Shown here one piece after another: positions 542 through 25,245 of a stretch of 25,245 bases of DNA. The translations under genes and the position numbers were made by a program. The stretch's first letter is position 1. Every line of letters starts with the position of its first letter. The stretch is from a virus: positions 1 to 25,245 of the IMG/VR virus record IMGVR_UViG_3300025087_000284. One strand, 5' to 3'. Below the pieces are notes generated by a model that saw nothing but the letters and a program-made list of their open reading frames with translations, was not told the DNA's origin and made no database searches.

Positions 542-848
542 CATCTACGATCTGCGGCGCGTGCTGCTGCCGCTGATGGATGGCATTCCGGGGGCGGAGG
601 ACGATCTGATGGATCTCTGGAAGATGGGAGCGCCAGACCCATCCCCATCGGCGAGGCCATGCCGGATGGGTTTCTGTGAGCATGAGATCATGTGGGGACA
701 GCGCTGCGGGAAATGGGGTTGCGCCAGGGAAAAGCGGGTACTGCTACCAGCGCAGTTTGCGGTGTGGTGGAATGCGCTGGCAAAACGGCAGGGTTTGGAG
801 CTTACGGCGGCGCAGGCGCTGGGGAAGCGGAAGAATGGACACCACTAA
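501..848 (+). CDS. Small four-cysteine protein of unknown function
   Basis: This 115-aa protein starts at an ATG preceded by a strong AGGAGGTG (489-496) and overlaps the portal gene by 41 bases; its last 14 bases overlap the next gene. Residues 54, 59, 69 and 74 are cysteines in a C-x4-C-x9-C-x4-C arrangement with a histidine at 61, in a short basic region. This looks like a zinc knuckle or ribbon, but could also be a disulfide or just a small structural motif. The N-terminal half is acidic with an amphipathic helix; the C-terminal half is helical and basic (ending KRKNGHH). I do not recognise the family. Lying between portal and the glycosyltransferase block, it could be a small accessory virion protein or belong to the accessory block. 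The gene is real with good confidence; its role is open. Confidence 0.7.
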   Translation: MAETDQNLTARMVSIYDLRRVLLPLMDGIPGAEDDLMDLWKMGAPDPSPSARPCRMGFCEHEIMWGQRCGKWGCAREKRVLLPAQFAVWWNALAKRQGLELTAAQALGKRKNGHH

Positions 849-1599
849 AGTTGCTATCGTGATCGTGAACTACAATATGCCGGAACGGGCGGATGCTCTG
901 GCAGAGTACATTCACGAATTCGTGCGCTGGCCGTATGAGCTGATCGTGGTGGATAATGGCAGCGATCAGGATCCCAGCCGTTATACATCCCTGACTCTAG
1001 GTCGGAATGTGCAAACTACGAACGGATGGCTGGCCGGGATCCAGTATGCCAATGCACTGGCAGCCATGCAAGGAGAAAAGTACCTGTCGTATTGGATGAT
1101 GATCACCAGCGCGGCATTTGTGGGAGGCGGGGATGTGTTGAAACCGATGGCGGAATGGCTTATAGAGCATCCAGATGCGGAAGGTATTCATCCGGCGCTG
1201 ACGCCGCGAAGCACGACCACCTGGAAGCATCTCATTACCCGACCTGACGCGGCACCGAGGCCAAGAAAAACCTGGATGATCGATAATATCGCTGCACTGT
1301 GGCGAGCGGAGTGGTTCGATAGCATCGGGCGCTTCGACCCAAAGCTGATCTACGGCTGGGGGATCGATCTGGAGACCTGCTGGAAGGCCAGAATGTCGGG
1401 GCTGACCTTGTGGGTTGACGAGCGGGTGCGCATGGAAAAGATCACGGACATCGGTTATACGATGCGCCGGATGGGGATGGATGCGCAGACGCGGCGGGAG
1501 CTGGCTACCGAGAACATGCGCTCGATCCTGAGTGTGCGCTATGGTGCGGATTGGTGGGATAAGATGACGAAGGACGGAGTCTATGACGATTTACGATGA
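835..1599 (+). CDS. GT2-family glycosyltransferase, DxD motif apparently missing
   Basis: A 254-aa protein with the GT-A fold signature of family 2: 'VAIVIVNYN' at the start, 'VVDNGS' at residues 39-44, and a 'GWGIDLETCWKAR' segment (174-186) that matches the acceptor-side [E/G]D-x-[E/D] region of rhamnosyltransferase-like GT2 enzymes. Such enzymes transfer a sugar from a nucleotide donor in the cytoplasm. The strand that normally ends in the metal-binding DxD reads 'YWMMITSAAF' (87-96), so the acidic pair appears absent. I chose the ATG at 835 because homology begins right after it and GGAAG precedes it; an in-frame ATG at 676 would add 53 residues that read as the shadow of the upstream gene. 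It overlaps the previous gene by 14 and the next by 17 bases, so it is translationally coupled to head genes. Confidence 0.82.
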   Translation: MDTTKVAIVIVNYNMPERADALAEYIHEFVRWPYELIVVDNGSDQDPSRYTSLTLGRNVQTTNGWLAGIQYANALAAMQGEKYLSYWMMITSAAFVGGGDVLKPMAEWLIEHPDAEGIHPALTPRSTTTWKHLITRPDAAPRPRKTWMIDNIAALWRAEWFDSIGRFDPKLIYGWGIDLETCWKARMSGLTLWVDERVRMEKITDIGYTMRRMGMDAQTRRELATENMRSILSVRYGADWWDKMTKDGVYDDLR

Positions 1600-2152
1600 C
1601 ATCACAGAGAAAATCGATGGAAGGATCGGCGTATCAGATTCGGAAGCGAAGTTGATAGAGTCCATCGTAAAGGACAGCGCCACCCATATCGAAACCGGCT
1701 GCCTGTGGGGCGGAACTGCGATCCTGGCGGCGCTGGCCGGGGCCAAATACGTGACTACCATCGATCCGATGAAAGGCGGTTGGTGGGAGACCGGCGACCC
1801 GGCGGTAGGGAAGAAACCAACACCGCAGATCGTCACAGAGAATCTAAAGCGCTTTGGCGTGACCTATAGCGTGCAGGTGATCATGCAGCCATCCTGGCCT
1901 TTCCCATTCCCGGAAGCCAATCCCGATTCGTTCTTCATCGATGGCGACCATAGCTTCCAGGGCTGTTTCACCGACTGGGTGATCGCATCATCGATCACCC
2001 GGCATTATGTGATGCTGCATGACTGCGATGACCGGCATCCAGGCGTGCAGCGGGTTGTCGATATCGCCAGGCATACCCCCGGATGGGCGCTAGACAGGCA
2101 ATCCGGTTCGCTTGTGTTGTTCGTGAGAGGCGACGCATGGCATCCTTTCTGA
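1583..2152 (+). CDS. Class I SAM-dependent methyltransferase (Methyltransf_24-like)
   Basis: A 189-aa protein with a recognisable Rossmann-fold methyltransferase core. Motif I is 'IETGCLWGG' (36-44), the SAM ribose-binding acidic residue is in 'TIDPM' (59-63), 'FFIDGDHSFQG' (117-127) matches the strand-4/5 region of small-molecule O-methyltransferases, and 'MLHDC' (144-148) follows. This combination is typical of the family often found beside glycosyltransferases, where it methylates sugars or glycan ends; a protein or nucleic-acid target is not excluded, although DNA methyltransferase motifs (DPPY, PCQ) are absent. It starts 17 bases before the end of the GT2 gene and its end overlaps the next gene by 16 bases. 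GGAG at 1576-1579 serves as ribosome binding site. The substrate is inferred only from context. Confidence 0.82.
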   Translation: MTIYDDITEKIDGRIGVSDSEAKLIESIVKDSATHIETGCLWGGTAILAALAGAKYVTTIDPMKGGWWETGDPAVGKKPTPQIVTENLKRFGVTYSVQVIMQPSWPFPFPEANPDSFFIDGDHSFQGCFTDWVIASSITRHYVMLHDCDDRHPGVQRVVDIARHTPGWALDRQSGSLVLFVRGDAWHPF

Positions 2153-2895
2153 TCCGTCAAAACCCGATGTATGCCGAGCCAGGATACAGCTCGAAGATCA
2201 TCAAGTACCTGGAGACCGGTGAGATCGTGTCGCTGGAAAGACCGATTGCAGTCGGCGACGAATTTGCCCAGGTGCGGGTGAGTAACAAGATCGGTTTCGT
2301 GCGCGCCGATTGGCTGGAAGACTATCACGATCCATTTCTGCCTTCCGGGCAACTACGCATTCCGAAGGATAACGAGATCCTGGATGCGGTGTACGCCGGC
2401 AGGGCTCCCCAATACATTTACCTGGGGGAAATAGGGGTGCGGAGGATCCATTACAACCTGTGCGGCGAGTTTTGCTGTGCTGCGCTGGCCGGGATGGACG
2501 TACTGCCGGCGTGTTTCGCCTGGCGTAGAGCCTATACACCGGCACAGAGGATCCTGGCGAATAATTTGGGGTCCGGGGTCGCCGATCTGTGGGCTATGCT
2601 CTCAGCGCTTGGCATCAAAGCAGTCAATCTGCGCTTCGATGCCAAGTATCCACCGTCGCCGGCGCGCCTGGCTGCTCTCAACACTCTCATTATCGGGGTT
2701 GGAATCAAGACAAATGGCGTCGTCGATCGGGCTGGAAAAATTCGGCATTGGGCGGTCATGCTGAACTTTCTCGCGTTGGGAAATAGCGGGTTCGCCCAGG
2801 TTTATAACCCATTCCGAAACCGGACCGAGATTGTTGAATACCGTGACTTGCTGGAAAGCGGCGGCGGGCTGACTGCGTTGGAGGTGCTGCGGTGA
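2137..2895 (+). CDS. SH3-like domain plus C39/papain-like cysteine peptidase candidate
   Basis: The 252-aa protein begins at an ATG with GAGAGG (2124-2129) upstream. Residues ~8-60 look like a bacterial SH3 domain (repeating short strands ending in 'GFVRADWLE'). Residues ~100-235 hold what looks like a papain-fold peptidase: 'YNLCGEFC' (106-113) with a Cys-Gly pair at 109-110, 'RHWAVMLNF' (203-211) with His204 in the usual H-W-[AV]-V context, and 'VYNPF' (222-226) giving the third polar residue. SH3 plus cysteine peptidase is common in cell-wall hydrolases, but C39-type enzymes also cleave proteins. No signal peptide is seen. It sits between a methyltransferase and a glycosyltransferase inside a head gene block, so lysis, peptidoglycan entry, or virion protein cleavage are all possible. 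The fold call is moderately sure, the substrate unknown. Confidence 0.6.
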   Translation: MASFLIRQNPMYAEPGYSSKIIKYLETGEIVSLERPIAVGDEFAQVRVSNKIGFVRADWLEDYHDPFLPSGQLRIPKDNEILDAVYAGRAPQYIYLGEIGVRRIHYNLCGEFCCAALAGMDVLPACFAWRRAYTPAQRILANNLGSGVADLWAMLSALGIKAVNLRFDAKYPPSPARLAALNTLIIGVGIKTNGVVDRAGKIRHWAVMLNFLALGNSGFAQVYNPFRNRTEIVEYRDLLESGGGLTALEVLR

Positions 2896-3581
2896 AGGGG
2901 TATTCGTTCTGCATTATCACGGACGGAAAAGAGCCGGAGAAGACGGGTAGAGAAATTGGTAGCATTTTATCCCTACATGTTTTCCCAGAAAGCAATTTCG
3001 AAATCATTCTCTGCGGAAATAACGTTCCAGTTATGGATTACCCACATGGCGGACTTTCCATAATGCGGTTGATCGAGCTTGGTATCCTGAGATTCGTTCC
3101 GGCTATTACCCTGGCGCAGAACGGAAATCTGGGGGCGATGCGCAACCTGGTTTGCGATAGGGCATACTACAACACCATCATCCTGGCTGATGATGATATC
3201 CTGTTCGATCATGACTTCGCCTGGGGGCTGGAGCACTGCGAATACGGCGACGATTGGGATGTGATGGCGGTGCGCATCCAGAATCCGGACGGGAGCCGGT
3301 ACTGGGACTGGAAGACCCACCAGGATGGGCGAGACCAACTGCTGGACTATTCCGTCAAATGGCATCCCGCCCTGTCGCTTACCGGCGGTATCATGGTGCT
3401 CAGGAAGAGCGTACGCGAACGGGTGCGCTGGAATAACGAATTAGGCTTTTACCAGGGCGAAGATGTAGAGTTCACCGAGATGCTGAAAACGGTGGGGCTG
3501 CGCATCCGGCTGAACCTGCGCTGCCTGGTCACCCACATGGCAGACTACACCCAGAGCGGTGATGTGGTGGTGCGCAAATGA
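2892..3581 (+). CDS. GT2-like glycosyltransferase with intact DDD motif
   Basis: A 229-aa protein starting at GTG in a GTGA overlap with the preceding stop; GGAGGT at 2880-2885 is well placed. It has the layout of a GT-A enzyme: an N-terminal 'YSFCIIT' strand, 'NGNLGAMRNL' (77-86; the nucleotide-sugar site helix), the metal-binding triad 'LADDDILF' (Asp100-102), a 'LTGGIMVLRK' strand (163-172) and 'YQGEDVEFTEML' (187-198), the catalytic-base region of GT2 enzymes. It should therefore be active with a divalent metal, unlike the DxD-less GT2 at 835. The first ~70 codons are visibly more A+T-rich than the rest (24 G+C in bases 2941-3000 by hand count), suggesting a mosaic origin. It ends in an ATGA overlap with the head morphogenesis gene. 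Confidence 0.82.
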   Translation: MKGYSFCIITDGKEPEKTGREIGSILSLHVFPESNFEIILCGNNVPVMDYPHGGLSIMRLIELGILRFVPAITLAQNGNLGAMRNLVCDRAYYNTIILADDDILFDHDFAWGLEHCEYGDDWDVMAVRIQNPDGSRYWDWKTHQDGRDQLLDYSVKWHPALSLTGGIMVLRKSVRERVRWNNELGFYQGEDVEFTEMLKTVGLRIRLNLRCLVTHMADYTQSGDVVVRK

Positions 3582-5062: not shown

Positions 5063-5099
5063 ACACGGTCAAGAGACAGGAAAAGTCTCTTGACCGTGT
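5063..5099 (+). terminator. 15-bp perfect stem-loop, terminator or attenuator candidate
   Basis: ACACGGTCAAGAGAC (5063-5077) is perfectly complementary to 5085-5099, with a 7-base loop AGGAAAA. It is followed by a T-rich but not uninterrupted tail (TTCTGTTTCT from 5099/5100). The ribosome binding site of the next gene (GGAGAGG at 5110-5116) begins 10 bases later. It therefore could act as a leaky intrinsic terminator separating portal/MuF transcription from the scaffold/capsid genes, as an RNase III processing site, or as a 5' stabilising hairpin. Confidence 0.5.
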
Positions 5100-7691: not shown

Positions 7692-7709
7692 GCAGCCTGA
7701 GAATGTTTG

Positions 7710-7742
7710 GAGGCCGGAAGGTTTCACTCGACTTCCGGCCTC
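7710..7742 (+). terminator. GC-rich 11-bp hairpin after the capsid module
   Basis: GAGGCCGGAAG (7710-7720) is perfectly complementary to CTTCCGGCCTC (7732-7742), with an 11-base loop. It lies in the 63-base gap between the small head protein gene and the first GT4 gene. The following TTCG has no real T run, so it may be a partial terminator, a transcript-end stabiliser or a processing site rather than a classic intrinsic terminator. It sits 4 bases before the GAGGTGA ribosome binding site of the glycosyltransferase. Confidence 0.5.
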
Positions 7743-7754
7743 TTCGAGGTGAAC

Positions 7755-8900
7755 ATGCGCATCTTATGGGTCTCCAACACCCCCTGGTCCCCTACCGGAT
7801 ACGGAAATCAGACCTGGTTGGTTTGCCGGATGCTGCCCAAGCTCGGACACGAGTTGGCAGTGGCGGCTAATTATGGTTTGCAAGGGTCAAGGCTGGATAT
7901 CGGCGGGGTGAAAATCTACCCGGTCGGGCGAGATAAGTTCTCGAACGACGTGATCCAGGCTTACGCCGACGACTGGCAGGCTGACGTGGTTATCAGCCTG
8001 TACGACGCCTGGACGCTGAATTTCGCAAAGCGGGAGAGCTGGCACAACCGTTGGATTGCCTGGGCGCCGGTGGATACCGAGAAAGCCTCTCAACCGATCA
8101 TAGATTCACTGCACGCAGCTACCCGGGTAGTAGCTTACAGCAAGCACGGCCTGCGAGTGCTGCAAGAAGCCGGAATCGATGCTGCGTATATCCCGCATGG
8201 GATCAACACAAGTAGTTTCATGCCTGGCGATAAGCTGGAAGCTCGAAAGCTGCTGAATCTTCCTGCCGACTGTTTCCTGGTGGGGATGATCGCAGCAAAC
8301 ATCGGCTACCCGAGCCGCAAGAGCATCCCTGAAGTCATTATGGCGTTTTCTTCAGTTTATCAACAGAACGACAAGGCGCTGCTGTATCTGCATATGATCC
8401 CCGATGAAACACACGGCGGGGTGAACGTCAATACGATTGCCAAGAGCGCGGGCCTGGAGGTTGGCAAACAGATCATCGTTGCTAATGCGTTCGATTACCT
8501 TTTAGGCTATCCAGAGCCGGCGATGGTACAGCTCTACCGGGCGATGGACGTGCTGGCGAATCCATCCACGGGTGAAGGGTTCGGGATCCCGATCATGGAA
8601 GCGATGGCGTGCGGAACGCCGGTGATCGGGACGAATTGCACTTCGATGCCAGAGCTGATCGGCTCTTCGGGCTGGTTGGTGGAAGGCGAGCCGTTTTGGG
8701 AAGCCCAGGGCGGCTGGAGAGTCACCCCGCACGTGTACGAGATTGCGGATGCTATGCTGAACGCAATGATCGAGCCGCGGCCCGAGAAAGAGCGGCGCAG
8801 TCAGCTATGCCGGGTGCGGGCGTTGGAATATGACGCCGAGACGATCATGATCCCGGCATGGAATGATTTTCTACAGCGATTTGCAGCGGAGGCGAAATGA
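7755..8900 (+). CDS. GT4-family glycosyltransferase, first of a tandem pair
   Basis: A 381-aa GT-B-fold enzyme. The ATG at 7755 follows GAGGTGA (7746-7752); an in-frame ATG at 7707 lies in the upstream hairpin and is rejected. The N-terminal domain opens with 'ILWVSNTPWSPTGYGNQT', the glycine-containing loop of GT4 donors/acceptors. The C-terminal domain has 'LYRAMDVLANPSTGEGFGIP', whose Glu274-x7-Glu282 is the EX7E motif that contacts the nucleotide sugar, followed by 'EAMACGTPVI'. Retaining GT4 enzymes transfer sugars from UDP-, GDP- or similar donors. There is no transmembrane segment, so it acts in the cytoplasm. The gene ends in an ATGA overlap with a paralogue of the same length. It is out of place among head genes, so likely an acquired accessory function. 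Confidence 0.87.
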   Translation: MRILWVSNTPWSPTGYGNQTWLVCRMLPKLGHELAVAANYGLQGSRLDIGGVKIYPVGRDKFSNDVIQAYADDWQADVVISLYDAWTLNFAKRESWHNRWIAWAPVDTEKASQPIIDSLHAATRVVAYSKHGLRVLQEAGIDAAYIPHGINTSSFMPGDKLEARKLLNLPADCFLVGMIAANIGYPSRKSIPEVIMAFSSVYQQNDKALLYLHMIPDETHGGVNVNTIAKSAGLEVGKQIIVANAFDYLLGYPEPAMVQLYRAMDVLANPSTGEGFGIPIMEAMACGTPVIGTNCTSMPELIGSSGWLVEGEPFWEAQGGWRVTPHVYEIADAMLNAMIEPRPEKERRSQLCRVRALEYDAETIMIPAWNDFLQRFAAEAK

Positions 8901-10042
8901 ACATCATTCTGGCTGGTCATGCTCCCTGGAGGCCTACCGGGTATGGCGTGCAGACAAAACTCTCGACGGAGATATTCAAGGCGCTGGGCCATCAGGTGAC
9001 GCTGCTGGTAGTTGACAGCCACGGGCCAGGCGTGATCGAGTGGCACGGTTTCGATGCATATCTTCCCAACCGTGACCGGTGGGGGCTGGATATCATCGGT
9101 ACGCTGTGCCAAATAACAAATTCCGATCTGGTGATTTCCATCTTCGACCCGTGGGTGCTGCCGATGGAGGGCTACCGGGTCGCCGGGCGGGATTGGATCG
9201 GTTGGTTCCCGGTCGATCAGCGACCGATGCCCTACCACCTGACAGGGCAGCTAGAACACATGACGCAGTGTGTGGCGCTTAGCACCTTCGGCCTGAATGT
9301 GATGCTGAGCGAAAAACCGAAACTAATGGAAAGATTCCACGCGATCCCTGCACCGGTGGATGTGAGCAAGTTCTCACTAGGCGACCGGCAGGAAGCGAGA
9401 AAGATACTTGGCTTGCCAGAGAACGCCAAAGTAGCCGGGATCGTGGCGGCCAATATCGCCGGCGACCGCAAGGCGCTGGCGGAACAGGTGGAAGGCTGGT
9501 GCATCTGGGCAAAATCATCAGGCGTCCAGGATGCAAGGCTATTGATACACAGCGATCCATTTGGGGCAGTCAACCTGGCAGCGCTGCTCGACCAATATGG
9601 CTGCCGGGATATGGCGCTATTCACCTCGGAATGGGCCAGGGCCTACGGATTTAGCTCGCATGAACAACTGGCGATCCTTTATCGGGCGATGGACGTGCTG
9701 CTGCACGCCAGCGCGGCTGAGGGTTTTGGGCTGTGCATCGCAGAGGCTATGGCTTGTGGAACGCCGGTGATTATCAATAACACCACATCGATGCCGGAGA
9801 CCAGTGGAAACGGGCATGGGCGTGTAATCATCGGCTCTGATTATCAAAATAAGGTTTGGTCGCCTTATGGCGGCTGGTGGAGTCGGCCAACAGCTAAGGG
9901 CGTGGCATGGGCGCTAGAAAATTTCTTCACTTACGACGCCCAGCTTTATCAGAACTACGAGAGCCGGGTCAGGGTGCGTGAAGAGGCATTGCGCTTTGCA
10001 CCCGAAAGGATTGGCGAGCAATGGTCAAAAATCCTGGCGTAA
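8897..10042 (+). CDS. GT4-family glycosyltransferase, second of a tandem pair
   Basis: Another 381-aa GT-B enzyme, overlapping its neighbour by ATGA. It shares the same layout: 'HAPWRPTGYGVQT' (8-20) and 'LYRAMDVLLHASAAEGFGLC' with Glu275-x7-Glu283, then 'EAMACGTPVI' and a conserved 'TTSMPE'. Identical length, aligned motifs and an 18-base identical stretch (CGGGCGATGGACGTGCTG) show that the two arose by duplication. Differences in the N-terminal domain (residues ~40-130), which usually binds the acceptor, suggest they act one after the other on different acceptors. The C-terminal ~70 residues (YGGWWSRPTAKGVAWAL) differ from the first copy in detail but keep the 'GGW' element. Regulation appears to be by coupling to the gene in front. 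Confidence 0.87.
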   Translation: MNIILAGHAPWRPTGYGVQTKLSTEIFKALGHQVTLLVVDSHGPGVIEWHGFDAYLPNRDRWGLDIIGTLCQITNSDLVISIFDPWVLPMEGYRVAGRDWIGWFPVDQRPMPYHLTGQLEHMTQCVALSTFGLNVMLSEKPKLMERFHAIPAPVDVSKFSLGDRQEARKILGLPENAKVAGIVAANIAGDRKALAEQVEGWCIWAKSSGVQDARLLIHSDPFGAVNLAALLDQYGCRDMALFTSEWARAYGFSSHEQLAILYRAMDVLLHASAAEGFGLCIAEAMACGTPVIINNTTSMPETSGNGHGRVIIGSDYQNKVWSPYGGWWSRPTAKGVAWALENFFTYDAQLYQNYESRVRVREEALRFAPERIGEQWSKILA

Positions 10043-13620: not shown

Positions 13621-13908
13621 ATGAGCGTTCTAATCGTGAGAGATGCGCCAGGCGGCGCCCAGGTGCTTTTGGATGGCAAGGATATCTCAGACGATCTGGT
13701 TGGATTGACCATCAGGATCGAATTGGGTCACACAAAGAGCCCGTCCGGTTTGATGATCCGAACTGCACCGGAAAAAAGGATTGCTGTCCTGGAATATCCC
13801 GAACCCGTTGCGATCGACAACCCGGTTGTCGAGGCAAAGTTCTCTCCAGATGTCCTATCGGAAATCGAACCGGTGAAGCGAAAGCGAGGCAAGCATGCCA
13901 CGAATTAG
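13621..13908 (+). CDS. Small tail-region protein of unknown function
   Basis: A 95-aa protein behind AGGAGG with a predicted small beta sandwich in its first half: 'GGAQVLLDGKDISDDLVGLTIRIELG'. Proteins with this 'V.LDG.DIS..v.gl.i....g' opening are frequent between major tail protein and tail chaperone genes in siphoviruses; their role is not known to me. The C-terminal third is Pro/charged (KRKRGKHATN) and overlaps the next gene by 14 bases. Confidence 0.65.
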   Translation: MSVLIVRDAPGGAQVLLDGKDISDDLVGLTIRIELGHTKSPSGLMIRTAPEKRIAVLEYPEPVAIDNPVVEAKFSPDVLSEIEPVKRKRGKHATN

Positions 13909-14496: not shown

Positions 14497-17400
14497 ATGA
14501 CGATCACGGCAGCAAAACTCATGGTGGTTATCGGGGGGGACGCCAGCGGGGCGCAGAAGGCGATGCAAGGTGCATCCAAAGGTCTGGATGCTTTTGCGCG
14601 CAATGCGCAGCAGATCGGCAATAACCTGTCTCGATGGGTGACGCTCCCCCTGATCGGCATCGGCGTGGCTGCTACGAAGCTGGCAGCAGACTTCGACCGC
14701 AATATGAACGTGTTGCAGGCCACCAGCGGCGCTACCGCTGCAGACATAGAAACGCTGCGGGAACAGGCGCAGGCGCTGGGCGCTGACCTGACGCTGCCAG
14801 GCACGTCAGCGGCGGACGTAGCCGAGGCCATGTTGGAGCTTAGCAAGGCGGGGCTGGAGGTGAACGATGTATTGGGCGCTTCCAGAGGCGTCTTGCAGAT
14901 GGCGGTGGCGGGGCAGATCTCGAACACACAGGCGGCCACGATCGCAGCCAATGCGATGAATGCATTTGGCCTGGCCGGAGCGGAAGCCACGAGAGTCGCA
15001 GATCTATTGGCGGCCTCGGCGAATGCTTCGAGCGCCGAGATTGCGGATATGGCGGATGCGCTGAAGATGAGCTCGGCTGTTTTTGCATCGGCGAAGATCC
15101 CCATCGAAGACCTGGTGACGGTGATTGCTGAGATGGCAAATGCAGGCATCCAGGGGAGCGACGCAGGCACGAGCTTGAAGCAGATGATGCTGAGCCTGCA
15201 AGCGCCAGCGGCAAAAGCAGCAAATCTGATGAAAGAGTTGGGAATCAGCGTTTACGACAGCCAGGGGAACATGATCTCGATGGAAGGGATCATCGGTCAG
15301 TTCGAGAACGCCCTGGGTGGGCTGACACAGGAACAGCGCAATGCGGCGCTGGCGGTGATCTTTGGCAGCGATGCCGTCCGAGCAGCGAACGTGGTGTTGA
15401 TGGGCGGCGTGGACGCATTCAACGAAATGAAGGTAGCAGTTACCGAGCAGGGGGCAGCGGCTGACCTGGCTGCGGCGCAGAATAAGGGCCTGGGCGGTGT
15501 GTTCGATAAGATCAAAAGCGCAGCCGAAACGGCTATGCTCGCCGGCATCGAGCCCTTGACCGACGACATCGTGAGCCTGGCAGATAAAGTGGCGCAGGCG
15601 CTGATCAAGTTTTCGGAGCTGGACGAAGGCACCCGGGACCTGACGGTGAAACTGGGATTGATGGCGCTTGTGGCAGGACCGGCGATGAAGGGGCTGGGAT
15701 GGATTGCCAGCGCAGGGAGCGGAGTCATCGGTATGCTGGGCAAACTGACGCCGATGATTTTAGAAAGCACAAGAGCCTGGCAGGCAGGTCTCACACTCCA
15801 GACTGCGCTCGAAGTGGGCTTCGGCTCGCTGGCGGTCACGCTGGGGGCAGTGGCCGTGGCAGTCGCTGCGGTCGTCGCGGTGGTCTGGCAATATAACGAG
15901 CAGATCGTCAAGACGAACGAAGAAGGGCAAAAAGCGGTCGATAACGCATGGGTACAGTTCTTCGATGGACAGGTGGATAGCGGAAAGAGCGCCTATGAGG
16001 TATTGCAAGCCTACAATGACCGGCTGAGTGTCTTGCAGCAAAAGTTGGAAGAACTCCCTCCGTGGCTGCGAATCTTCATCACGAACCAGGATGAACTGAC
16101 GGATAACCAAGCAGTGCTGAACCATGCCCTGGTGGAAGCAGCGAATTCGTATGATGAGTATGCCGGCGCGGCAGCCCAGGCTGGGCTTGGAGCTGAGGCG
16201 TTCTCGGAAGCCGAATACGAATCGATAAAGAACACGGAGGAACTGGCTCAGGCTAATTTAGACCTGACGACGCAGCTGCTAGATACGTCCGATGGATACG
16301 ATGCGTACGTCGATGCGATGACCGAGGCTGGTCTTCTGCTGATGGTGATCACGGAGGACGAATATAACGCAGCAAAAGCAGCGGTGGTTCTGGGCGATGA
16401 AACCCAGGGAGCGGCAGAGAGGATCGATGAACTGTCTGCGGCTGCGATGGACGCCAGCGACATACTTTCCGGCCTGGACAGCGCCCTGCAGGCAGCGGGT
16501 TGGTCTGCGGATGAAGCGGAGGCAGCGCACAACCGGCTGGCGATTGCACTCGGAGAGCTGGATCCGGCTGTAGCGCAGACAGAAAGCGATATGGATCTGC
16601 TGAACCAGGCGTTTGCAGCGGGGGCGATTGCAGAGAACACCTACACGGATGCGGCGCTGCGAGCGAAAGAGGGGGTAGAAGTCCTGTCAGAGGCAGAGCG
16701 CCAGGCTGTAACAACAGCACTCGACCATGCCCGGGCGCTTGAGGAAGCTGCAAGAGCGGCAGAAGAGGCCACCCTGCGACAGATCGAAATGGCGCAGCAA
16801 ATGTCCGAGATGTGGAGCCGGGCCTTCGATAGCTACCAAAGCGGCGTTGACCGGCTGCTGGAGCGCCAGGAAGAAATCAACGGGAGAATCGCCGAGCTCC
16901 AATTGAAACTGCGCCAGGCGCAGAAAGAAGGCGATAAAAGCGCTATCAAAAACTACAAGCAGCAGATTGCTGATCTGCGCGGCGAGGCGGCTGAAACATC
17001 GAAAGAGGTCGGTAAGTTGGCAGATGAGATGCAGCGCACCATCGATGCAGCGATTGCCAGCGCGGCAATCCAGGAGCTGCAACGGATGTACGAAGAAGGG
17101 AAGCTCACCTTCGAGGAATATGTTGGCGGTCTTACAGGCATCCAGGAATCGTTCGGGCTGACCAATGAAGCCGGCATCGGCATTGCGGCTGGAATCGCCG
17201 CAATCAGCGGCGCAGTAGAAACCGGCAAGCTGCCGGTCGATCAATATGACGAGGCGATGAAGTTCCTGGCACAGGATGCCGGCGACGGACAGGTAGACCT
17301 GGAGAAGCTGAACGAGTGGATCGGGACGGTAGCAGAGACAGCAACCGAAACGGCCACCCTGGTTACCCAGGGGATGGACGACGCCGAAAAAGCGATGGAG

Positions 17401-17943
17401 GGGGCGGCGACCACAGCAGAAACAACAGCTTCGGAGATAGCGAAGGCGTTCACAGAAGTCGATTGGGTGGAAGTCGGTCGGACGATAGGAGAGGGCATCG
17501 CCCAGGGGATCGACGAAAGCGCCCAGGCTGTAGAAGATGCTGCAAGGGCTGCGGCGGAAGGGGCGAGCGGCGGCGTGGCAGACGAATTGGAGATGCAAAG
17601 CCCGAGCCGGGTTATGTACCGGCATGGCGTCAATGCTATGAAAGGCCTGGAGATGGGCGTGATGGACAGCGCCGAGGACGTGATCGCGGCGGTGATGGCG
17701 ATTGCCGGAGATATGGCGCGAGTGACCTGGTTGGTTCCCGGGATTGGATCGGAGAGCTGGGCAGGGAACGGCCCGGCAGAGACAGTGGTATCCGGCGGCG
17801 GAAGTCCGCTGCTTGATCACCTGCCGGGCGGGAACAAGAACCAGCCAGGCTCTGGAAGCGGACAAACACACCTGACGGTAAATATCGACGGTCGGTCGGT
17901 GCGGGAAGTGGTGCTAAACAGGTTGAATGAGGAGCTGACATGA
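14497..17943 (+). CDS. Tape measure protein
   Basis: The longest gene of the window, 1148 aa, directly after the chaperone pair. Residues ~60-310 are the TP901-type core: 'LAADFDRNMNVLQATSG', 'ALGADLTLPGTSAADVAEAMLELSKAG' (read in two parts) and 'GNMISMEGIIGQFENALGGL'. Hydrophobic stretches at ~381-415 and ~445-466 ('GAVAVAVAAVVAVVWQY') could insert in the membrane during DNA injection. Coiled-coil rich repeats follow (~490-790) and a strong charged helix at ~782-850. Near the end 'MQSPSRVMYRHGVNAMKGLEMGV' is the conserved C-terminal motif of these proteins, where the chaperones or distal tail bind. Protein length sets tail length; 1148 aa predicts a tail around 150-180 nm by the usual ~1.5 angstrom per residue rule. 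No Zn-peptidase or lysozyme motif was noticed in it. Confidence 0.92.
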   Translation: MTITAAKLMVVIGGDASGAQKAMQGASKGLDAFARNAQQIGNNLSRWVTLPLIGIGVAATKLAADFDRNMNVLQATSGATAADIETLREQAQALGADLTLPGTSAADVAEAMLELSKAGLEVNDVLGASRGVLQMAVAGQISNTQAATIAANAMNAFGLAGAEATRVADLLAASANASSAEIADMADALKMSSAVFASAKIPIEDLVTVIAEMANAGIQGSDAGTSLKQMMLSLQAPAAKAANLMKELGISVYDSQGNMISMEGIIGQFENALGGLTQEQRNAALAVIFGSDAVRAANVVLMGGVDAFNEMKVAVTEQGAAADLAAAQNKGLGGVFDKIKSAAETAMLAGIEPLTDDIVSLADKVAQALIKFSELDEGTRDLTVKLGLMALVAGPAMKGLGWIASAGSGVIGMLGKLTPMILESTRAWQAGLTLQTALEVGFGSLAVTLGAVAVAVAAVVAVVWQYNEQIVKTNEEGQKAVDNAWVQFFDGQVDSGKSAYEVLQAYNDRLSVLQQKLEELPPWLRIFITNQDELTDNQAVLNHALVEAANSYDEYAGAAAQAGLGAEAFSEAEYESIKNTEELAQANLDLTTQLLDTSDGYDAYVDAMTEAGLLLMVITEDEYNAAKAAVVLGDETQGAAERIDELSAAAMDASDILSGLDSALQAAGWSADEAEAAHNRLAIALGELDPAVAQTESDMDLLNQAFAAGAIAENTYTDAALRAKEGVEVLSEAERQAVTTALDHARALEEAARAAEEATLRQIEMAQQMSEMWSRAFDSYQSGVDRLLERQEEINGRIAELQLKLRQAQKEGDKSAIKNYKQQIADLRGEAAETSKEVGKLADEMQRTIDAAIASAAIQELQRMYEEGKLTFEEYVGGLTGIQESFGLTNEAGIGIAAGIAAISGAVETGKLPVDQYDEAMKFLAQDAGDGQVDLEKLNEWIGTVAETATETATLVTQGMDDAEKAMEGAATTAETTASEIAKAFTEVDWVEVGRTIGEGIAQGIDESAQAVEDAARAAAEGASGGVADELEMQSPSRVMYRHGVNAMKGLEMGVMDSAEDVIAAVMAIAGDMARVTWLVPGIGSESWAGNGPAETVVSGGGSPLLDHLPGGNKNQPGSGSGQTHLTVNIDGRSVREVVLNRLNEELT

Positions 17944-18363
17944 ACGTTTTGGCAATGCGAAGACATAGAACAATCCGGCAGGTAATCTATCCGCTTACTG
18001 GATTGGCGTTGCCCTATACTGTCGATTTCTCCAGCCTGGGAAATGGAGGGCTGCCTTCGCCATGGCGAGGGGCAACCTGGACAATTCTAAGCGGCGCTGC
18101 CACCAATACCCCCACCCTGGGAACTGAAGAACTAACCGACCAGCAACCCCGTTGCCATCAAGGCGCTGGCAGCCAACACGGGCATCGTATATGTTGGAGA
18201 TTCGAGTGTTTCCAGCGCCAACGGGTTCGAGCTGAGCGCCGGCGAGGTCATTATCTTCGACTTCCTGGTCGATCTGGCGTCTGTGTGGATCGATGCAGCG
18301 GTGAGCGGCGAAGGCGTCTGCTGGCTGATCCTATCTGCCCGGACACGCCCACCATCCAGCTAA
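17940..18363 (+). CDS. Distal tail-region protein interrupted by a +1 frame break
   Basis: Starts at ATG 17940 in an ATGA overlap with the tape measure. In zero frame residues 1-70 look like real protein ('YTVDFSSLGNGGLPSPW', 'TWTILSGAATNTPTLG'), but the remainder becomes Arg/Cys/Gln-rich nonsense to a stop at 18366-18368. One base further, from 18151, the +1 frame reads 'VAIKALAANTGIVYVGDSSV' then 'ELSAGEVIIFDFLVD' and 'VSGEGVCWLI', a well-formed beta domain common in phage structural proteins, to TAA at 18361-18363. The frames join at the CCCC run 18147-18150. Joined product: 140 aa. The +1 frame is closed upstream by TAA at 18133. This may be a one-base insertion or homopolymer error, or a +1 ribosomal shift at CCC-C. 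Role: small tail or baseplate protein, possibly surface-exposed. Confidence 0.7.
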
Positions 18364-18364
18364 C

Positions 18365-18823
18365 ATGATCGATTACATCACCTTATCCAACAGCAACGGG
18401 TCGCTGATAAAGCGGTTCGATCTATTGGAGTTCAAGCCGGCAACAGGGCGCAGCGAGGCGGCGGAAACGCTTTCGAGCGGTCGCAAGCATGTGACACGCG
18501 GGCGGGCGCAGAAAGTGTTTGACGTTACCTTCCTAATTCCAGAGATTTCCCTGGACGTAAATTGGGGAGACCAGGCCGACCTGGAAGAGTTCCACGGGTA
18601 CGATATGCCGGGAGCGACGCCCAGCGACGTGCTGACACTGACGCTGATGGATGAAAGCGTGTACCAGGTGCGCTGGTTGGGAGACCTGGAGCCGGTTCCA
18701 GAGGGTACGATCCTGTATGGCAGCCTGGCGTATTATGCGGTTCGAGCCGAGCTGCTGGATGTCTCACTACCACAGCTCGATTATTCTAACGTGGACTACA
18801 GTATGTACCTGGCGCTGATTTAG
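18365..18823 (+). CDS. Tail protein, possibly distal tail (Dit-like)
   Basis: A 152-aa beta-rich protein whose ATG follows the joined upstream stop by one base and overlaps the zero-frame stop (ATGA). No SD is seen, so initiation probably depends on ribosomes ending the upstream gene. Strand-rich stretches include 'IDYITLSNSNGSLIKRFDLLEF', 'RAQKVFDVTFLIPEISLD' and 'SVYQVRWLGDLEPVPEGTILYGSLAYYAVRAELLDV'. A gene of this size between tape measure and large tail protein is where the Dit hub usually lies, and the strand pattern would fit its N-terminal domain, but the C-terminal galectin domain is missing. Treat the role as tentative. Confidence 0.5.
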   Translation: MIDYITLSNSNGSLIKRFDLLEFKPATGRSEAAETLSSGRKHVTRGRAQKVFDVTFLIPEISLDVNWGDQADLEEFHGYDMPGATPSDVLTLTLMDESVYQVRWLGDLEPVPEGTILYGSLAYYAVRAELLDVSLPQLDYSNVDYSMYLALI

Positions 18824-18839: not shown

Positions 18840-19541
18840 ATGTCGAACATTCCAATCTTAACAGGTCTGGGAGACGAAGCTTATCTAAAGTCCTCTGGCG
18901 CTGGAACGAGCGGCGATCCGTTTATTCCAGAACAGACGATGAAACAGGCCACGCACGATGACCTGAACGGGAATGCAAACCTGCAGGTGAATAATGCAGA
19001 TGTTGGCATGGCTAACCCGGTGCCGGTGAAGTTTGGCACATCGATTGCTCTGCCGGCAGGCGAGAACCATATGGGTGCGGTCGGGAAACCGGCGACGGTG
19101 GTGGACGTGACGCTGGCGCTGGATACGAGCCAGTACGCGGACGGCGACGTGCTCTCGGAGACGGCAGCCGTGGCTTCTGCGGTGCGCACGAATGCCGGCA
19201 TAGGCAAGCTGGTCAGCCTGGCGGTGATCGACGGGGATGACCAGGGCCAGGCGATGGATATCTATCTGCTGAGCTCCAATGTGGCCATGGGCAGCGCCAA
19301 TGCTGCGCCGTCGATCTCTGACGCCAACGCCGGGGCGATCCTGGGTATGGTAGCGATCGGCACGGCGCAGTACCGGGACCTGGGCGGCGTGAAAGTGGCG
19401 ACGCTGATGGAAAATGACCTGGGTATGCTGGTGAAGGGCGCAGCAGGCATCAAATCGATCTACCTGGCGACGATCAGCCGGGGAACCGGGACGTATTCGG
19501 CCAGCGGTGTGAAGTTGCGGCTGGGGATCGAACAATACTAA
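18840..19541 (+). CDS. Structural protein of unknown function
   Basis: A 233-aa protein behind a very strong GGGAGGAGG (18826-18834), among the best SD sites in the window, implying high expression. It is alanine/glycine/threonine-rich with many predicted strands. Segments: N-terminal 'GTSGDPFIPEQTMKQATHDDLNG', a middle 'VVDVTLALDTSQYADGDVLSET' and 'LVSLAVIDGDDQGQAMDIYLLSS', and C-terminal 'GIKSIYLATISRGTGTYSASGVKLRLG'. I have seen similar 'LDTS.Y..GDVL ... L.S..viD..D....idi.ll..' proteins in virion gene clusters but cannot give a role. Strong SD suggests a multi-copy component, for example a tail or head surface protein. Confidence 0.6.
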   Translation: MSNIPILTGLGDEAYLKSSGAGTSGDPFIPEQTMKQATHDDLNGNANLQVNNADVGMANPVPVKFGTSIALPAGENHMGAVGKPATVVDVTLALDTSQYADGDVLSETAAVASAVRTNAGIGKLVSLAVIDGDDQGQAMDIYLLSSNVAMGSANAAPSISDANAGAILGMVAIGTAQYRDLGGVKVATLMENDLGMLVKGAAGIKSIYLATISRGTGTYSASGVKLRLGIEQY

Positions 19542-19561: not shown

Positions 19562-22500
19562 ATGAGAACGGATATTCCACAGGCGATCATCGACGCTCTA
19601 GCGGAGGATGCGACCAGCACGGTGCAAATCCGGCTGAGCGGTGGTCGCACGCGTGCGATGAATTGGGAGCGAAACGCCGAGAAAGCGCCGGCGTGGGCGG
19701 ATGATCCCGGAGCAATGGATTCACCGCTGGCGCAGGATTTTTGCATGGTGGCCGGGATGGGTTATTCCATTTTCGTGTACGGCGGCGAGCTGTGGGTATG
19801 CAACCAGTTCTCTGAGCCGATGAAAGCGACAGTGGGCGGGATCACCATCGACGCCGACGACGGCTCCAGGCCGGCAATCCGGCAGGGGCGCAACGAGAGC
19901 GAGTTGAGGGTGTATTACTGCACCGGCGCGGCGATCCAGAGTGCGGATCTTGACCGGGCGCTGGTAGACGCAGGCACGACGGAGTGCGTGCTGGAAGGGG
20001 ATACTTATTCCTTTGCGCACCAGGCGGCGTTGCATGCAATCGGTCTGGACGAAATTGTCGCCCTGTGGATCGACGACGGGGGCATCCGGGTGACCCTGAT
20101 CGATTACCAGGCAGCGACAGAGGTAAGCTGGCAGGGTCGGTTTATGTGGCCGGGGACGGATGTGGGCGCAAGCCTTGCGCCCCTACTCAATTACTCGGCT
20201 GCCGTGGAGTACGAGAGCAAAGTCTTTATATACCTGTCTGCTCCAACCGGAGAAGTGATGGGAGTGACCTACCGGCGCAGCAACGGGGCATGGAGCGACA
20301 GCTTTACAGCGGTCCTGGCAGACATGAGCCGCTTCCTGGCCGGGAAAGCGCTACTGATCGGGGATGCGATCTACCTGACAGGGATGCTTTACCGCTACGA
20401 TCGGGATGGGTCGTTCACGGCGGGCGTGTTCTACACGCTGCTGCTGTACAGCACGGATGGGCGGATATTTGCGATGGACCGCACCACTACCGTGGCCGGC
20501 GGGCAGGATACAGACACATTCAGCATGGCGCTGCGCTTCCTAGCCGGTTACAGCGAAACGCCGGACAGCCGGTACGGGATCGGGGCAGGCCTGGTGTTTT
20601 CAGATGCCAACCGGTGGTTCGCACAAGAGTCGCATTTCGGGATCGACGGCGTGGTGAAAGGGTACGATTTTCGAGATTGCATCCTGGCGCAGGTCAGTTT
20701 CGGGCAGATGTTCGATGTGACAATTCCTTTCGATACGAACGAGGACGCCGACCAGGTGCTGGTGGGCGACGTGGTGGATGTTTATTTCGGTGTGCGGGTC
20801 CCGGATGGGCCAATGCAAGAATTCCTGGCGGCCCGTTGCATAGTGATGGAAGTGCGTGAGGCGGTCAGCAGCGGGAGCCGCAGCCTGACGGTCAGCCTTG
20901 TATCGTTTTCGGATGGTAAGTTGTTAGAGATGGCGCATCCGTTCGCGCTGCGGAAGCATGGCAAAGAATTCTTGCACGATACGCTGGCAGAACTGGATAA
21001 CTTCGACCTGGCGAGCGAGGATGGTTTCGTGTTGTTCCCGCTGGCGGTGGATTTCTGGGGAAACGGGCAGATAGACCATGAGACGCACAACGCCAGCGAA
21101 GTAAAAGAGTTTACCACGCCGGAGCTTGACGAAGAACTGGATATCGTCGAACTGCCGGAGATCGAGGCGCTGCCGTTCGAGATCCACTGCTTCGGATGGA
21201 GCAGGTCGGGAAAGCCATCGGTGAGCGAGGATGGGGAGACGCTGGACGATAACCCGAGCGATCCGCTGGCGCCGAACGATGCGATCTACGTGAACCTGTA
21301 TATCCAGCGGGAGGGGGAAGCTGCGGATGTGGTGGTGAAGGTGGATACGCCAGCGAGCGGGCACGTGGATCACTTTCCGCAGACCTGGAAAGCCACGGGA
21401 GCAGGGGATTACCCGGTAGTCTTAGAAGCCAATGCCGGCCTGCAGGCCGGCGACCGGATCAAGAAGATCGGGCTGGTATTCTCAAACACACGCACGCCGA
21501 ACACGGCTGAAACTGTGTTCATTCCTGAGCGGGTGGAAATTCCTACGATCATGACGAAAGTGCGGTCGTTTCGGGATTCGTGGAAGACCGTGCAGGTGGA
21601 TAACGAAGCCGGCGTACCTGAAGACGGCCAGGCGCTGCAGCGGATCGGGATACCGGTGGTGCAATTCGCCCAGCAGCCGTATTATGCCCTGGGCTGCCAG
21701 GTCAGTCTGAAGATGGCAGTGGAAGGCGACAGCGCCTACGCCGGCGTGATCTGCCTGGCTTCGGACGGCCTGAACTACGTGGCTGCCAGGGCCAGCGCTA
21801 CGAAGGTGCAGCTCGTCGCCGCACGTGCGGGAGATGAGAGCGTACTGGCGGAAGAAAGTTACGCGTTTCCAACGCCAATGGGCTGGATCATGCTTCGCTA
21901 CCAGGACGGGCTATTCCGGGTGTACGTGAAAAGTAGCTCGACCAACCAATGGGCGCCGACATTGGAGTACGAATGGACGGAGGCGGACGGGGCGCTGCTG
22001 GTGGACGACCAGATCAGCCACGTGGGACTGTATGCTTTTAACGACGGGGCATACGTCAAGATCACCGGCCTTGACCTGGAAGCGACAGATGGGGTCGGGA
22101 TTCTACCGCTGGCGCATAAGATCGATGACTTCCCGGCTTCAGGTCAAATCCGAGTGGATGACTGTATTTACAGCTACACCAGCAAGGGCGCAGCTCCAAC
22201 ATCAGTTGGCGGGCCGTACCAGGGACGTAACGTGAGCGGTCCATACGCCTACACCAACGATGGCAAGCATTATGAGGGCAATGCGACCGAGTTCCTGCGC
22301 TTCGAGTGGGTCAGTAACAGCACACATGCAACGGATTTCCAGGGGAAGTACCTGGCGACCGATACAGGAATCGTGTGGACGATCGGGCTGGTGGATTTCA
22401 AGCCTTTCATCACAACGCACAAGGTCAAGGTTTTCCTGCGCAATCGAGGGCGTTTCTATTGCGCCCGGGCCAACGCCGATGTGATCGGCAAAAGCGTGCG

Positions 22501-22762
22501 CATCTGGCTGACGGACGTGCTGTTGGGTCTGAAGCGGATCAGCGGCGAGGAAACAACGCACCGCTATGGTACGGTGGCCTATGTAAACAGCGAGACCAGC
22601 GCAGCCAGCATATTCGAGTTCGCAGCGATCGTGGACGGTAAGCACCTGACCGACCGGGAGGCGCTGGATTGGATCGCCAGGGTCTGCCGTGCGACGGCTG
22701 AGTTTCCGGGCGATATCACTACGGCCAGCCACAGCCTGGCTACGGCCTGGGAGGCGCGCTGA
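19562..22762 (+). CDS. Large tail/baseplate protein with lectin-like domain
   Basis: A 1066-aa beta-rich protein. Residues ~1-400 consist of repeated strands with Trp/Tyr and Gly turns ('GYSIFVYGGELWVCNQF', 'MYRYDRDGSF'-like motifs), perhaps a propeller or baseplate domain; ~370-480 ('FGQMFDVTIPFDT', 'VDVYFGVRVPDG', 'SRSLTVSLVSF') resembles the beta core of hub proteins that bind the tail tube. Residues ~715-835 look like a concanavalin/LamG-type jelly roll ('ALGCQVSLKMAVEGDSAYAG', 'GWIMLRYQDGLFRVYVKSS', 'ISHVGLYAFNDGAYVKI'), which would bind sugar or provide a spacer. No enzyme motif recognised. It likely forms part of the tail tip that contacts the cell. It ends in a TGATG overlap with the next gene. 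Confidence 0.6.
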   Translation: MRTDIPQAIIDALAEDATSTVQIRLSGGRTRAMNWERNAEKAPAWADDPGAMDSPLAQDFCMVAGMGYSIFVYGGELWVCNQFSEPMKATVGGITIDADDGSRPAIRQGRNESELRVYYCTGAAIQSADLDRALVDAGTTECVLEGDTYSFAHQAALHAIGLDEIVALWIDDGGIRVTLIDYQAATEVSWQGRFMWPGTDVGASLAPLLNYSAAVEYESKVFIYLSAPTGEVMGVTYRRSNGAWSDSFTAVLADMSRFLAGKALLIGDAIYLTGMLYRYDRDGSFTAGVFYTLLLYSTDGRIFAMDRTTTVAGGQDTDTFSMALRFLAGYSETPDSRYGIGAGLVFSDANRWFAQESHFGIDGVVKGYDFRDCILAQVSFGQMFDVTIPFDTNEDADQVLVGDVVDVYFGVRVPDGPMQEFLAARCIVMEVREAVSSGSRSLTVSLVSFSDGKLLEMAHPFALRKHGKEFLHDTLAELDNFDLASEDGFVLFPLAVDFWGNGQIDHETHNASEVKEFTTPELDEELDIVELPEIEALPFEIHCFGWSRSGKPSVSEDGETLDDNPSDPLAPNDAIYVNLYIQREGEAADVVVKVDTPASGHVDHFPQTWKATGAGDYPVVLEANAGLQAGDRIKKIGLVFSNTRTPNTAETVFIPERVEIPTIMTKVRSFRDSWKTVQVDNEAGVPEDGQALQRIGIPVVQFAQQPYYALGCQVSLKMAVEGDSAYAGVICLASDGLNYVAARASATKVQLVAARAGDESVLAEESYAFPTPMGWIMLRYQDGLFRVYVKSSSTNQWAPTLEYEWTEADGALLVDDQISHVGLYAFNDGAYVKITGLDLEATDGVGILPLAHKIDDFPASGQIRVDDCIYSYTSKGAAPTSVGGPYQGRNVSGPYAYTNDGKHYEGNATEFLRFEWVSNSTHATDFQGKYLATDTGIVWTIGLVDFKPFITTHKVKVFLRNRGRFYCARANADVIGKSVRIWLTDVLLGLKRISGEETTHRYGTVAYVNSETSAASIFEFAAIVDGKHLTDREALDWIARVCRATAEFPGDITTASHSLATAWEAR
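21434..21451 (+). repeat. 18-bp perfect palindrome inside the large tail gene
   Basis: GCCGGCCTGCAGGCCGGC reads the same on both strands. It lies in codons for A-G-L-Q-A-G of the 1066-aa tail protein, and contains NaeI-, HaeIII- and PstI-type words nested around TGCA. It may be only a GC-rich coincidence of Ala/Gly codons. Confidence 0.6.
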
Positions 22763-23709
22763 TGGCTGAGTTCTACGACTTCGAGGTAGGTAGCTTCGAC
22801 GTGCAGCTCACCCTTTCGGAGATGGAGACCGGAGATTTAATCCGGATTAAGACCGACACGGCGGTGACGGCAGCGGATGGAGCGCTGAGCAGCCCGGAGA
22901 GCACAGTGGAGATAACCAGGCTGGCGGATGGATATCGCCTTGCGCTGCTGGATACCAACGGGAGCGAGATCGACCGGTTCGAGGCAGATTACCCGGCAGG
23001 ACCTGCCAGGCTGCAGGTGACCGGGCACGACGACGCCTTCTCGGTGTTCCTGGATGACGCCTGGCTGTACACGTTCTTCCTGACTTATGTGCATTACGAG
23101 ATCGAGCCGAGCATCGAAGTATCGGGCAGCTCGGGGATCACGATCAGCAATGGGCTGGTAGCGGAGCTGTACGACTGCCGGGATGCACTGGATATCGACC
23201 TGCAGAACAGTATGTTGAATGCAGCCAGCAGCGTTTTAGGGCAAAAGCCGATCAGGGTCTGGTCAACGTATGATGGGGTGGTGTGCTACGCCTACGATCC
23301 ACCGGCAGACGACGTGCAACTCTACCGGGCAACCACATTCGAGAAAGTGCGCAGCCTGCCCAGCGGTTCGGCATCGGATGCGCTGGTGATGCACCAACGC
23401 CTGGCGGCGCTGGCAGACCTGGCAGCTCTGGAAGAATTCGGGCTGATGACCCGGCTGGTGCGTGCGCCCGAGCTAGGGGCGGGAGCGATCCGGGTAGGGC
23501 AGAAGCTGCTGGAAAACGGACGCCAGGCAGCGGTGAGATATATGGCGAGCGGTCCCATCGATCCAAGAATTGAGATGTATGACCGGGTATCGGCCTGGGT
23601 GATCACGCCCGGGGCGGCGGTTGGGTACGATGCGACGCTCATCGTTGACAGTATAGCCTATACCGGCGGCGCCAGGCCGAGCATGAAGCTGGAAGGGAAT
23701 CGTCCATGA
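22762..23709 (+). CDS. Baseplate hub-like tail protein
   Basis: A 315-aa protein behind GGGAGG (22749-22754), overlapping the previous stop by one base. Residues ~1-135 form another jelly-roll-like domain ('YRLALLDTNGSEIDRFEADY', 'DAFSVFLDDAWLYTFFLTY'). Residues ~150-310 resemble the end of gp27/gp44-type hub proteins: 'RVWSTYDGVVCYAYDPPADD' and 'RYMASGPIDPRIEMYDRVSAW', with the pattern '[P]..i.pgDrv' of insertion into the tail tube axis. The ATGA overlap at the end couples it to the tail spike gene. This is likely a central tail-tip protein; the family is not certain. Confidence 0.55.
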   Translation: MAEFYDFEVGSFDVQLTLSEMETGDLIRIKTDTAVTAADGALSSPESTVEITRLADGYRLALLDTNGSEIDRFEADYPAGPARLQVTGHDDAFSVFLDDAWLYTFFLTYVHYEIEPSIEVSGSSGITISNGLVAELYDCRDALDIDLQNSMLNAASSVLGQKPIRVWSTYDGVVCYAYDPPADDVQLYRATTFEKVRSLPSGSASDALVMHQRLAALADLAALEEFGLMTRLVRAPELGAGAIRVGQKLLENGRQAAVRYMASGPIDPRIEMYDRVSAWVITPGAAVGYDATLIVDSIAYTGGARPSMKLEGNRP

Positions 23710-25245
23710 GTGAAAATAAGCTGACGCCATTCCGCAAACGGGTGCGGGATACTGCAAAGGATTACAGCCTGGCTGCGACCGTGGTAGATGCGGTGGGAAG
23801 CTTCTGCAGCGTGCGCCTGGCGCAAAACGGGCAGCTGATGACCGGGCTGAAGTATTCCGGGGTGAAGCCTGAGCCAGGGAAGAAGGTCCAGGTGGATTTT
23901 ATCTCCGGGTCGCCGATCGTGCTCACGGGTGCGGCCATGCCGGCAGCCGAGCCGGAGGTAAAGCCAATCCCACCAGCGCCGGTGAACTCGGAACAGGTTG
24001 ATCCGGATTACAGCGGGATCCTGCGCTACCACAGCGGCGAGATCGTGGCAGCATACCCGGCGAACGAGGAAGGTATGCAGGATGCGCTGGACGATTGCAT
24101 CGACGACGACCTGATCGTTCTGCCGGTTATCCAGCTGACGATGGACGTGGTGATGCCGGACAGCATCACGATCCGAGGGGATAGCAGGGAGACAAGTTTT
24201 ATTTACGGTCACCTGACGATGGGGGAAAAATGCAAAGTAACTAAGGTTTCTATGATCAATGCGGGAACTAGCTTCAGTCAGCTTGTCGCTCTCACTGGCT
24301 CAAAGAAGTACCTGGGAGTGGTCAGTGATTGTGATGTGTTGGCATCAAACTGCGGGGTTGGTGGTGCAGTTGGCTTGATGTCAACTGTCACTGCGACTAC
24401 AAGAGTAAGCAATTGTTTCTTGTCTGGCGAGGGTATTAGTGCTTGGGCAGTGTACCGGACTGCCGGATATGTTTATCTCGAGTACACTAAGGTCTATGGC
24501 TTGTACTATGGGGATGTGCATGTCTATGGAACTTATGAGGGGGAAGGTGTCATGGTCTGTGATGGCATTGTTAGAAATCCTGGTGGGCCACAGATGTCCT
24601 ATCGAGCAACTCTGGAAGTTCCTGGAGAGATGGTCAGGTCCCTAGCCGGAATCACAGCCATGACGAAAACACAGGTTGCCGCAACACCATCGGGCTACGC
24701 AGCCATTCAGCACTGTGTTAGTGATGACTATATCTACACAGTTACTCCAACTGGCGAGGCAAACGAATATATATTCAACCAGTATCAGGTTGCAAGTCCA
24801 GCAACAGCGCCAAAAACCTGCATTATTGACGATGGGGACAATATCCCGCTCATCGCCATGTGGGATAAAGATACCCTCCTCGCCGTTTACGACAATGGCA
24901 CAGAATACGTGATGATCTCGATGGACTTTTCAGTTGAAACTCCAGTAGCGACGGAGATAGATGCTTGGCCATATGAGGCGATAAGCCACAGCTACAACCA
25001 ACCAGACACACTGGTTGTAGCTGTGGCGTCAACTGGCACATTTGCTCTGTACGGTGGTATGGTTTTTGATGCCACTGAAAGCTACTATAAGGGCTATGTG
25101 CGAATTTGGGATGGCGCAAATGGTATCTGGATGATCGACAAGTTTGAACTTGCATCTGCCAATCCCGCGCATGTTGCATGGTCACTTGAACAAACCTTCT
25201 GGCCGCAAGCCGCAATATGCGGAGACAAGGTTGTTCTTGCGTATC
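23706..25245 (+). CDS. Tail spike with OB-fold N-terminus and beta-helix domain (3' end outside window)
   Basis: The frame starting at ATG 23706 (GGAAGGGA at 23691-23698; ATGA overlap with the hub gene) is open to the end of the window, at least 513 codons. Residues ~1-80 look like a spike OB fold ('SLAATVVDAVGSFCSVRLAQ', 'GKKVQVDFISGSPIVLTG'), followed by a Pro-rich linker (80-97). Residues ~110-300 have the right-handed beta-helix signature of tail spikes: 'YPANEEGMQDALDDCIDDDLIVLP', then 'LTMDVVMPDSITIRGDS' and repeated short rungs. The far part (~330 on) is Trp/Tyr-rich strands, possibly a propeller-like binding domain. From ~24215 base composition falls and codon use changes sharply. Such proteins bind and often cleave surface polysaccharides; catalytic residues cannot be named from this fragment. 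Confidence 0.68.
   Translation, partial: MSENKLTPFRKRVRDTAKDYSLAATVVDAVGSFCSVRLAQNGQLMTGLKYSGVKPEPGKKVQVDFISGSPIVLTGAAMPAAEPEVKPIPPAPVNSEQVDPDYSGILRYHSGEIVAAYPANEEGMQDALDDCIDDDLIVLPVIQLTMDVVMPDSITIRGDSRETSFIYGHLTMGEKCKVTKVSMINAGTSFSQLVALTGSKKYLGVVSDCDVLASNCGVGGAVGLMSTVTATTRVSNCFLSGEGISAWAVYRTAGYVYLEYTKVYGLYYGDVHVYGTYEGEGVMVCDGIVRNPGGPQMSYRATLEVPGEMVRSLAGITAMTKTQVAATPSGYAAIQHCVSDDYIYTVTPTGEANEYIFNQYQVASPATAPKTCIIDDGDNIPLIAMWDKDTLLAVYDNGTEYVMISMDFSVETPVATEIDAWPYEAISHSYNQPDTLVVAVASTGTFALYGGMVFDATESYYKGYVRIWDGANGIWMIDKFELASANPAHVAWSLEQTFWPQAAICGDKVVLAY
24985..25027 (+). repeat. 16-bp perfect inverted repeat within the tail spike gene
   Basis: GCCACAGCTACAACCA (24985-25000) is perfectly complementary to 25012-25027, with an 11-base loop. 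It lies inside coding sequence of the A+T-richer part of the tail spike. The frame stays open through it (reading H-S-Y-N-Q-P ... V-V-A-V-A). It would make a strong mRNA hairpin. Confidence 0.75.

Follow-up and report, generated by a model that had tools for sequence, protein, structure and literature searches.

The tail region and its last reading frame

The window considered here is the whole virus record, 25,245 bases long. On its head side the genes follow each other in the order portal fragment, head morphogenesis, scaffold, capsid, connectors and major-tail-like protein, up to the tape measure, which marks the tail module (Table 1). Five proteins come after it, of 142, 152, 233, 1066 and 315 amino acids, with no convincing family match in Pfam or PHROG, and for the last of them no match in either collection. 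The frame that interests us, running from 23706 to the contig end, is the sixth gene downstream of the tape measure, and it is because of this position in the gene order that we ascribe to it a probable role at the tail tip. It has no match in Pfam, in PHROG or among PDB sequences.

The initial annotation called the product a tail spike, with an anchor and a binding or enzymatic part. These labels, which we keep as putative, come from gene order together with the look of the sequence. By eye, residues ~20-80 resemble an OB-like attachment domain, residues ~120-135 presumably form a cap helix, the stretch ~120-300 has the look of a capped beta-helix, and what comes after residue ~335 that of a propeller. 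Two structure predictions returned a mean pLDDT of 36.0 and 34.9, too poor for use.

Table 1. Features of the tail region discussed in the text (positions in the window).
Feature	Coordinates	Strand	Remarks
Tape measure protein, marker of the tail module	14497-17943	+	PF10145, 1.2e-50; phrog_1533
1066-aa tail-tip protein	19562-22762	+	No convincing family match; native codon usage
315-aa neighbour, possible tail hub protein (by position only)	22762-23709	+	Native codon usage
Open frame, probable tail-tip or spike protein	23706-25244	+	513 codons, truncated by contig end
N-terminal part of the frame, residues 1-162	23706-24191	+	Native codon usage, GC3 0.76
Direct repeat CTGACGATGG, copy 1	24135-24144	+	10 nt, repeat family D12
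Break interval (95% posterior)	24162-24249	+	Change-point analysis; best point 24189-24192
Distal part of the frame, residues 163-513	24192-25244	+	Deviant codon usage, GC3 0.47, G+C ~0.49
Direct repeat CTGACGATGG, copy 2	24213-24222	+	10 nt, repeat family D12
Perfect inverted repeat in the coding distal part	24985-25027	+	16-nt arms, 11-nt loop

A sharp step within an intact frame

Attention had been drawn to this gene by three blocks of 60 nt containing 37, 29 and 26 G+C, counts that are exact. Blocks with at most 29 G+C are also found elsewhere (31 of 402), so that the quoted blocks are weak evidence in themselves; it is the run of one kilobase that is strong and carries the case. The 17 blocks from 24181 onward average 28.9 G+C, against 35.0 in the 402 earlier ones, and G+C is 0.487 in the last 1029 bases, while the lowest window of that size elsewhere reaches 0.539 (mean 0.582, sd 0.016). 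Change-point analysis of the third codon position places the fall in GC3 at codon 162, with a strength that none of 2000 permutations matched. A model with one step has a log10 Bayes factor of 6.3 and a 95% range of codons 153-182; a second step barely improves the fit, and one is therefore enough. Sliding G+C and GC3 thus both bear out the sustained drop described at the outset, and the break proposed at ~24215 lies within the 95% range. The accompanying codon shift was also rightly seen: across the break CTG goes from 0.63 to 0.26 and GTG from 0.52 to 0.19, GTT rises from 0.15 to 0.47 and ACT from 0.08 to 0.48.

The reading frame is not disturbed by this change. Over the 351 distal codons it contains no stop, against 14, 21, 21, 7 and 19 in the five other frames, and the distal part is therefore coding, as is the remainder of the frame. 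The composition break is real, sharp and placed within an intact reading frame.

Codon usage against the other genes

Codon fit was computed with amino acids held fixed, against the 26 other genes of the contig. Synonymous choice fits well before the break (z +3.1) and very poorly after it (z -10.7), which excludes amino-acid content as the cause. Among the 26 genes the next worst fits are those of 17940-18368 (z -5.1) and 13621-13908 (z -2.3), and the lowest rolling window of 351 codons elsewhere gives z -4.2. Every block of 50 codons from codon 151 onward deviates (z -3.1 to -4.6); hence the shift extends to the contig end. Both halves of the distal part deviate in the same way (r 0.50). The tail genes upstream match the first part of the frame: those beginning at 18840, 19562 and 22762 deviate in the direction opposite to the distal part (r -0.29, -0.43 and -0.25), and the gene of the 1066-aa protein displays no such shift, with a codon fit of z +3.4.

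Three genes deviate partly in the same direction as the distal part, 17940-18368 (r 0.39), 2083-2895 (r 0.50) and 13621-13908 (r 0.41), so that native genes with weak versions of the distal usage do exist. The first of these, which codes for the 142-aa protein directly after the tape measure, has a GC3 of 0.50 and no family match. As for a possible donor, codon usage names none: the best loci match the distal part no better than would an equal use of synonyms.

Repeats around and beyond the break

The two copies of CTGACGATGG flank the best break point on either side. They might constitute a patch of short homology, or be there by chance, as two-copy repeats of such size often are. Further on, the inverted repeat at 24985-25027 makes a hairpin with a predicted RNA folding energy of -32 kcal/mol (z -5.4). 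Counting this one, two inverted repeats in the window are perfect, have arms of at least 15 nt and enclose a short loop; none of 60 dinucleotide shuffles contains any. At 5063-5099, shortly before the gene at 5118, a perfect inverted repeat with 15-nt arms and a 7-nt loop could be a terminator or an operator.

Relatives of the phage

Search for the capsid gave 7 viral loci at first and 22 in total with alignment; it is also present in a contig of a Candidatus Eisenbacteria MAG and in one of an Anaerolineae MAG. In the nearest head relatives the capsid is 46-74% identical. Compared gene by gene in eight head loci, the head genes have 27-74% identity; the tail-tip genes have no match in these eight, of which only one (L017) extends that far. 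Searching the whole records of 20 head relatives, a subset of those found, located the tape measure in 4, the spike in none and the 1066-aa protein in none. Search with the tape measure retrieved 31 viral loci. In four of these its identity reaches 68-73% over 120 residues, and they have connectors, major tail protein and tape measure in common with the window, to varying degrees. No gene from 17940 onward has a match in any of the 31, and for 23 of these loci the complete record contains no match to the spike. It is thus the whole tail tip, beyond the distal half alone, that is without found relatives.

The two parts of the spike were also searched for separately, as had been suggested, together with a search for phages combining the same anchor with a different C-terminus. 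Neither residues 1-165 nor residues 166-513 retrieved a relative from the phages collection or, with peptide patterns, from viral_contigs; the viral_contigs scans, which require an exact match of eight residues to a single query, reach close relatives only, so that their empty result is weak. Single matches to spike parts, at E 10 and E 4, are at chance level, and the spike has no match in plasmids. Within the class to which the Anaerolineae genome belongs, 2 of 396 gave a match to the spike, one judged to be chance and the other with internal stops, and 1 of 396 a match to the 1066-aa protein, judged to be chance; in the corresponding phylum the 315-aa neighbour was found in 0 of 400, and for the phylum that includes the Eisenbacteria genome the spike was found in 0 of 47. 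Among the weak hits, the following were dropped on inspection: G392:C966 (L044), a short proline-rich, membrane-like match in a bacterial contig, and G030:C159 (L046/L053), whose setting resembles by eye a respiratory-chain operon. The frame of L045 has two stops.

Other features of these phages deserve mention. Some four genes form a cassette around 835-3577; the first one is weakly similar to glycosyltransferase 2, below the Pfam cut-off. The four have no match in five head relatives (L012, L013, L018, L019 and L020), where the flanking genes are only ~80 bases apart in all except L018 (~400), and the cassette looks like an inserted cargo island. The gene at 835-1599, with a codon fit of z +0.4, is no outlier; neither the 8 head loci nor the 31 tape-measure loci contain a match to it. 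Between the capsid and connector genes, 7707-10042 carries two adjoining glycosyltransferase genes (phrog_2170), the first of which is kept in head relatives at ~52% identity. Finally, the head morphogenesis homologue of G005 (L018 10921-11888) is split, with matches to residues 3-268 and 260-352 lying ~970 bases apart, which we read as an inserted element or an intron.

How rare are such steps?

Among loci of phages whose tape measure is related, a fall in GC3 with z of at least 6 is seen in 0 of 74 ORFs lying downstream of that gene and in 1 of 71 lying upstream (1 of 145 altogether). This tally, on which we rely, counts high-to-low steps only. In a two-sided tally of the head-module relatives, which includes some overlapping loci and is inflated by mechanical ORF starts, the frame ranks third of 150 ORFs; in G+C-rich phages, spurious upstream extension of an ORF creates a false low-to-high step.

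Origin of the distal part

We think it likely, with a probability of about 0.6, that this tail-tip protein of a tailed phage, which probably contacts the receptor, is in two parts, the first ~162 codons being native and the remainder recombined from a phage of lower G+C. The first part, native to the phage, would probably fix the protein to the tail. The remainder would have come by recombination from a lower-G+C phage with a preference for codons such as ACT, GTT and CCA, too recently for amelioration to have erased its usage. An in-frame join of this kind would keep the part that attaches and replace the part that contacts the cell surface, with host-range exchange as a putative effect. That a distal part had been acquired on a native anchor was already the proposal of the initial annotation: the sharp in-frame break and the native character of the first part speak for it, while no relative of either part was found in the collections searched. 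Against a swap one must also count the three native genes of partly similar usage, the rank of third among 150 ORFs, and structure models that cannot be used. That a native anchor carries an acquired distal module is nevertheless the best reading, plausible and preferred, if unproven.

It might be that nothing was transferred, and that the distal part is native, its usage being shaped by selection (slow codons helping beta-structure to fold, for example), by relaxed selection or by fast evolution. Tail-tip genes do evolve fast, one other gene of the contig fits poorly and three deviate partly likewise. Yet the step is sharp, with a 95% range of ~30 codons, and large even when amino-acid content is controlled; none of 74 tail-side ORFs of the relatives has one as strong, and the 1066-aa neighbour lacks such a shift. 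We hold a purely native origin to be unlikely. The contig itself could be at fault: the assembler may have attached to it a last kilobase or so that comes from another phage or from a population variant. The deviant segment coincides exactly with the end of the contig, a place where assemblies break off or are wrongly joined, and a misjoin would be favoured if the tail-tip gene varied within a mixed population. That the frame stays open across the break, through 351 codons, argues against an assembly joint, and a random join would retain strand and frame in ~1/6 of cases; a fusion of two variants of this one gene would, for its part, preserve the frame. On balance such an artefact seems quite improbable to us.

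Still more so is a device generating variation within the genome, be it a diversity-generating retroelement or an invertible segment: we give it very little credence. The perfect inverted repeat within the distal segment would go along with it, but a change of codon usage across 350 codons is not what such devices are expected to produce. Within this incomplete contig there is no second copy of the segment and no template/variable repeat pair, and none of the 27 predicted proteins matches a reverse transcriptase or recombinase family among the PHROGs matches listed. We may also venture, as a rather doubtful refinement, that the break falls inside a beta-helical solenoid and not where anchor and body meet, with exchange through homology at the level of a rung or through very short homology such as CTGACGATGG, in which case we would be dealing with an undescribed tail-tip family that swaps its distal part within the helix.

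Comparison with known receptor-binding proteins

Modular receptor-binding proteins combine a conserved N-terminal anchor with an exchangeable C-terminal receptor-binding or depolymerase domain, as in tailspikes directed at E. coli O-antigens or in the depolymerases of Klebsiella phages. As in these proteins, the boundary is here near residue 150-165, with a native first part and a deviant second one, and the gene is found at the tail end of the structural genes. Unlike them, the spike is unrelated in sequence to every known member, and it is composition, rather than homology, that constitutes the evidence, no exchange partner having been seen. That C-terminal receptor-binding domains are exchanged while the N-terminal anchors are conserved is documented (PMC10408124, PMC8262889): the former has anchors clustering by phage taxonomy while receptor-binding domains move across genera, with an anchor cut-off of 150 amino acids, and the latter finds exchanged modules functional. 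The break at residue ~162, with its intact frame and native upstream genes, fits this pattern of an anchor kept and a domain exchanged.

Exchange of the outer parts of tail proteins between phages is a common route of phage evolution. The present case is ordinary in kind and leaves the known picture of tail-protein mosaicism unchanged. If the acquisition of a distal module is true, this phage would provide one clear case, visible through composition, of receptor-binding module exchange in a group of uncultured phages for which the collections searched contain no relatives of the tail tip, and the replacement would alter which cells are bound.
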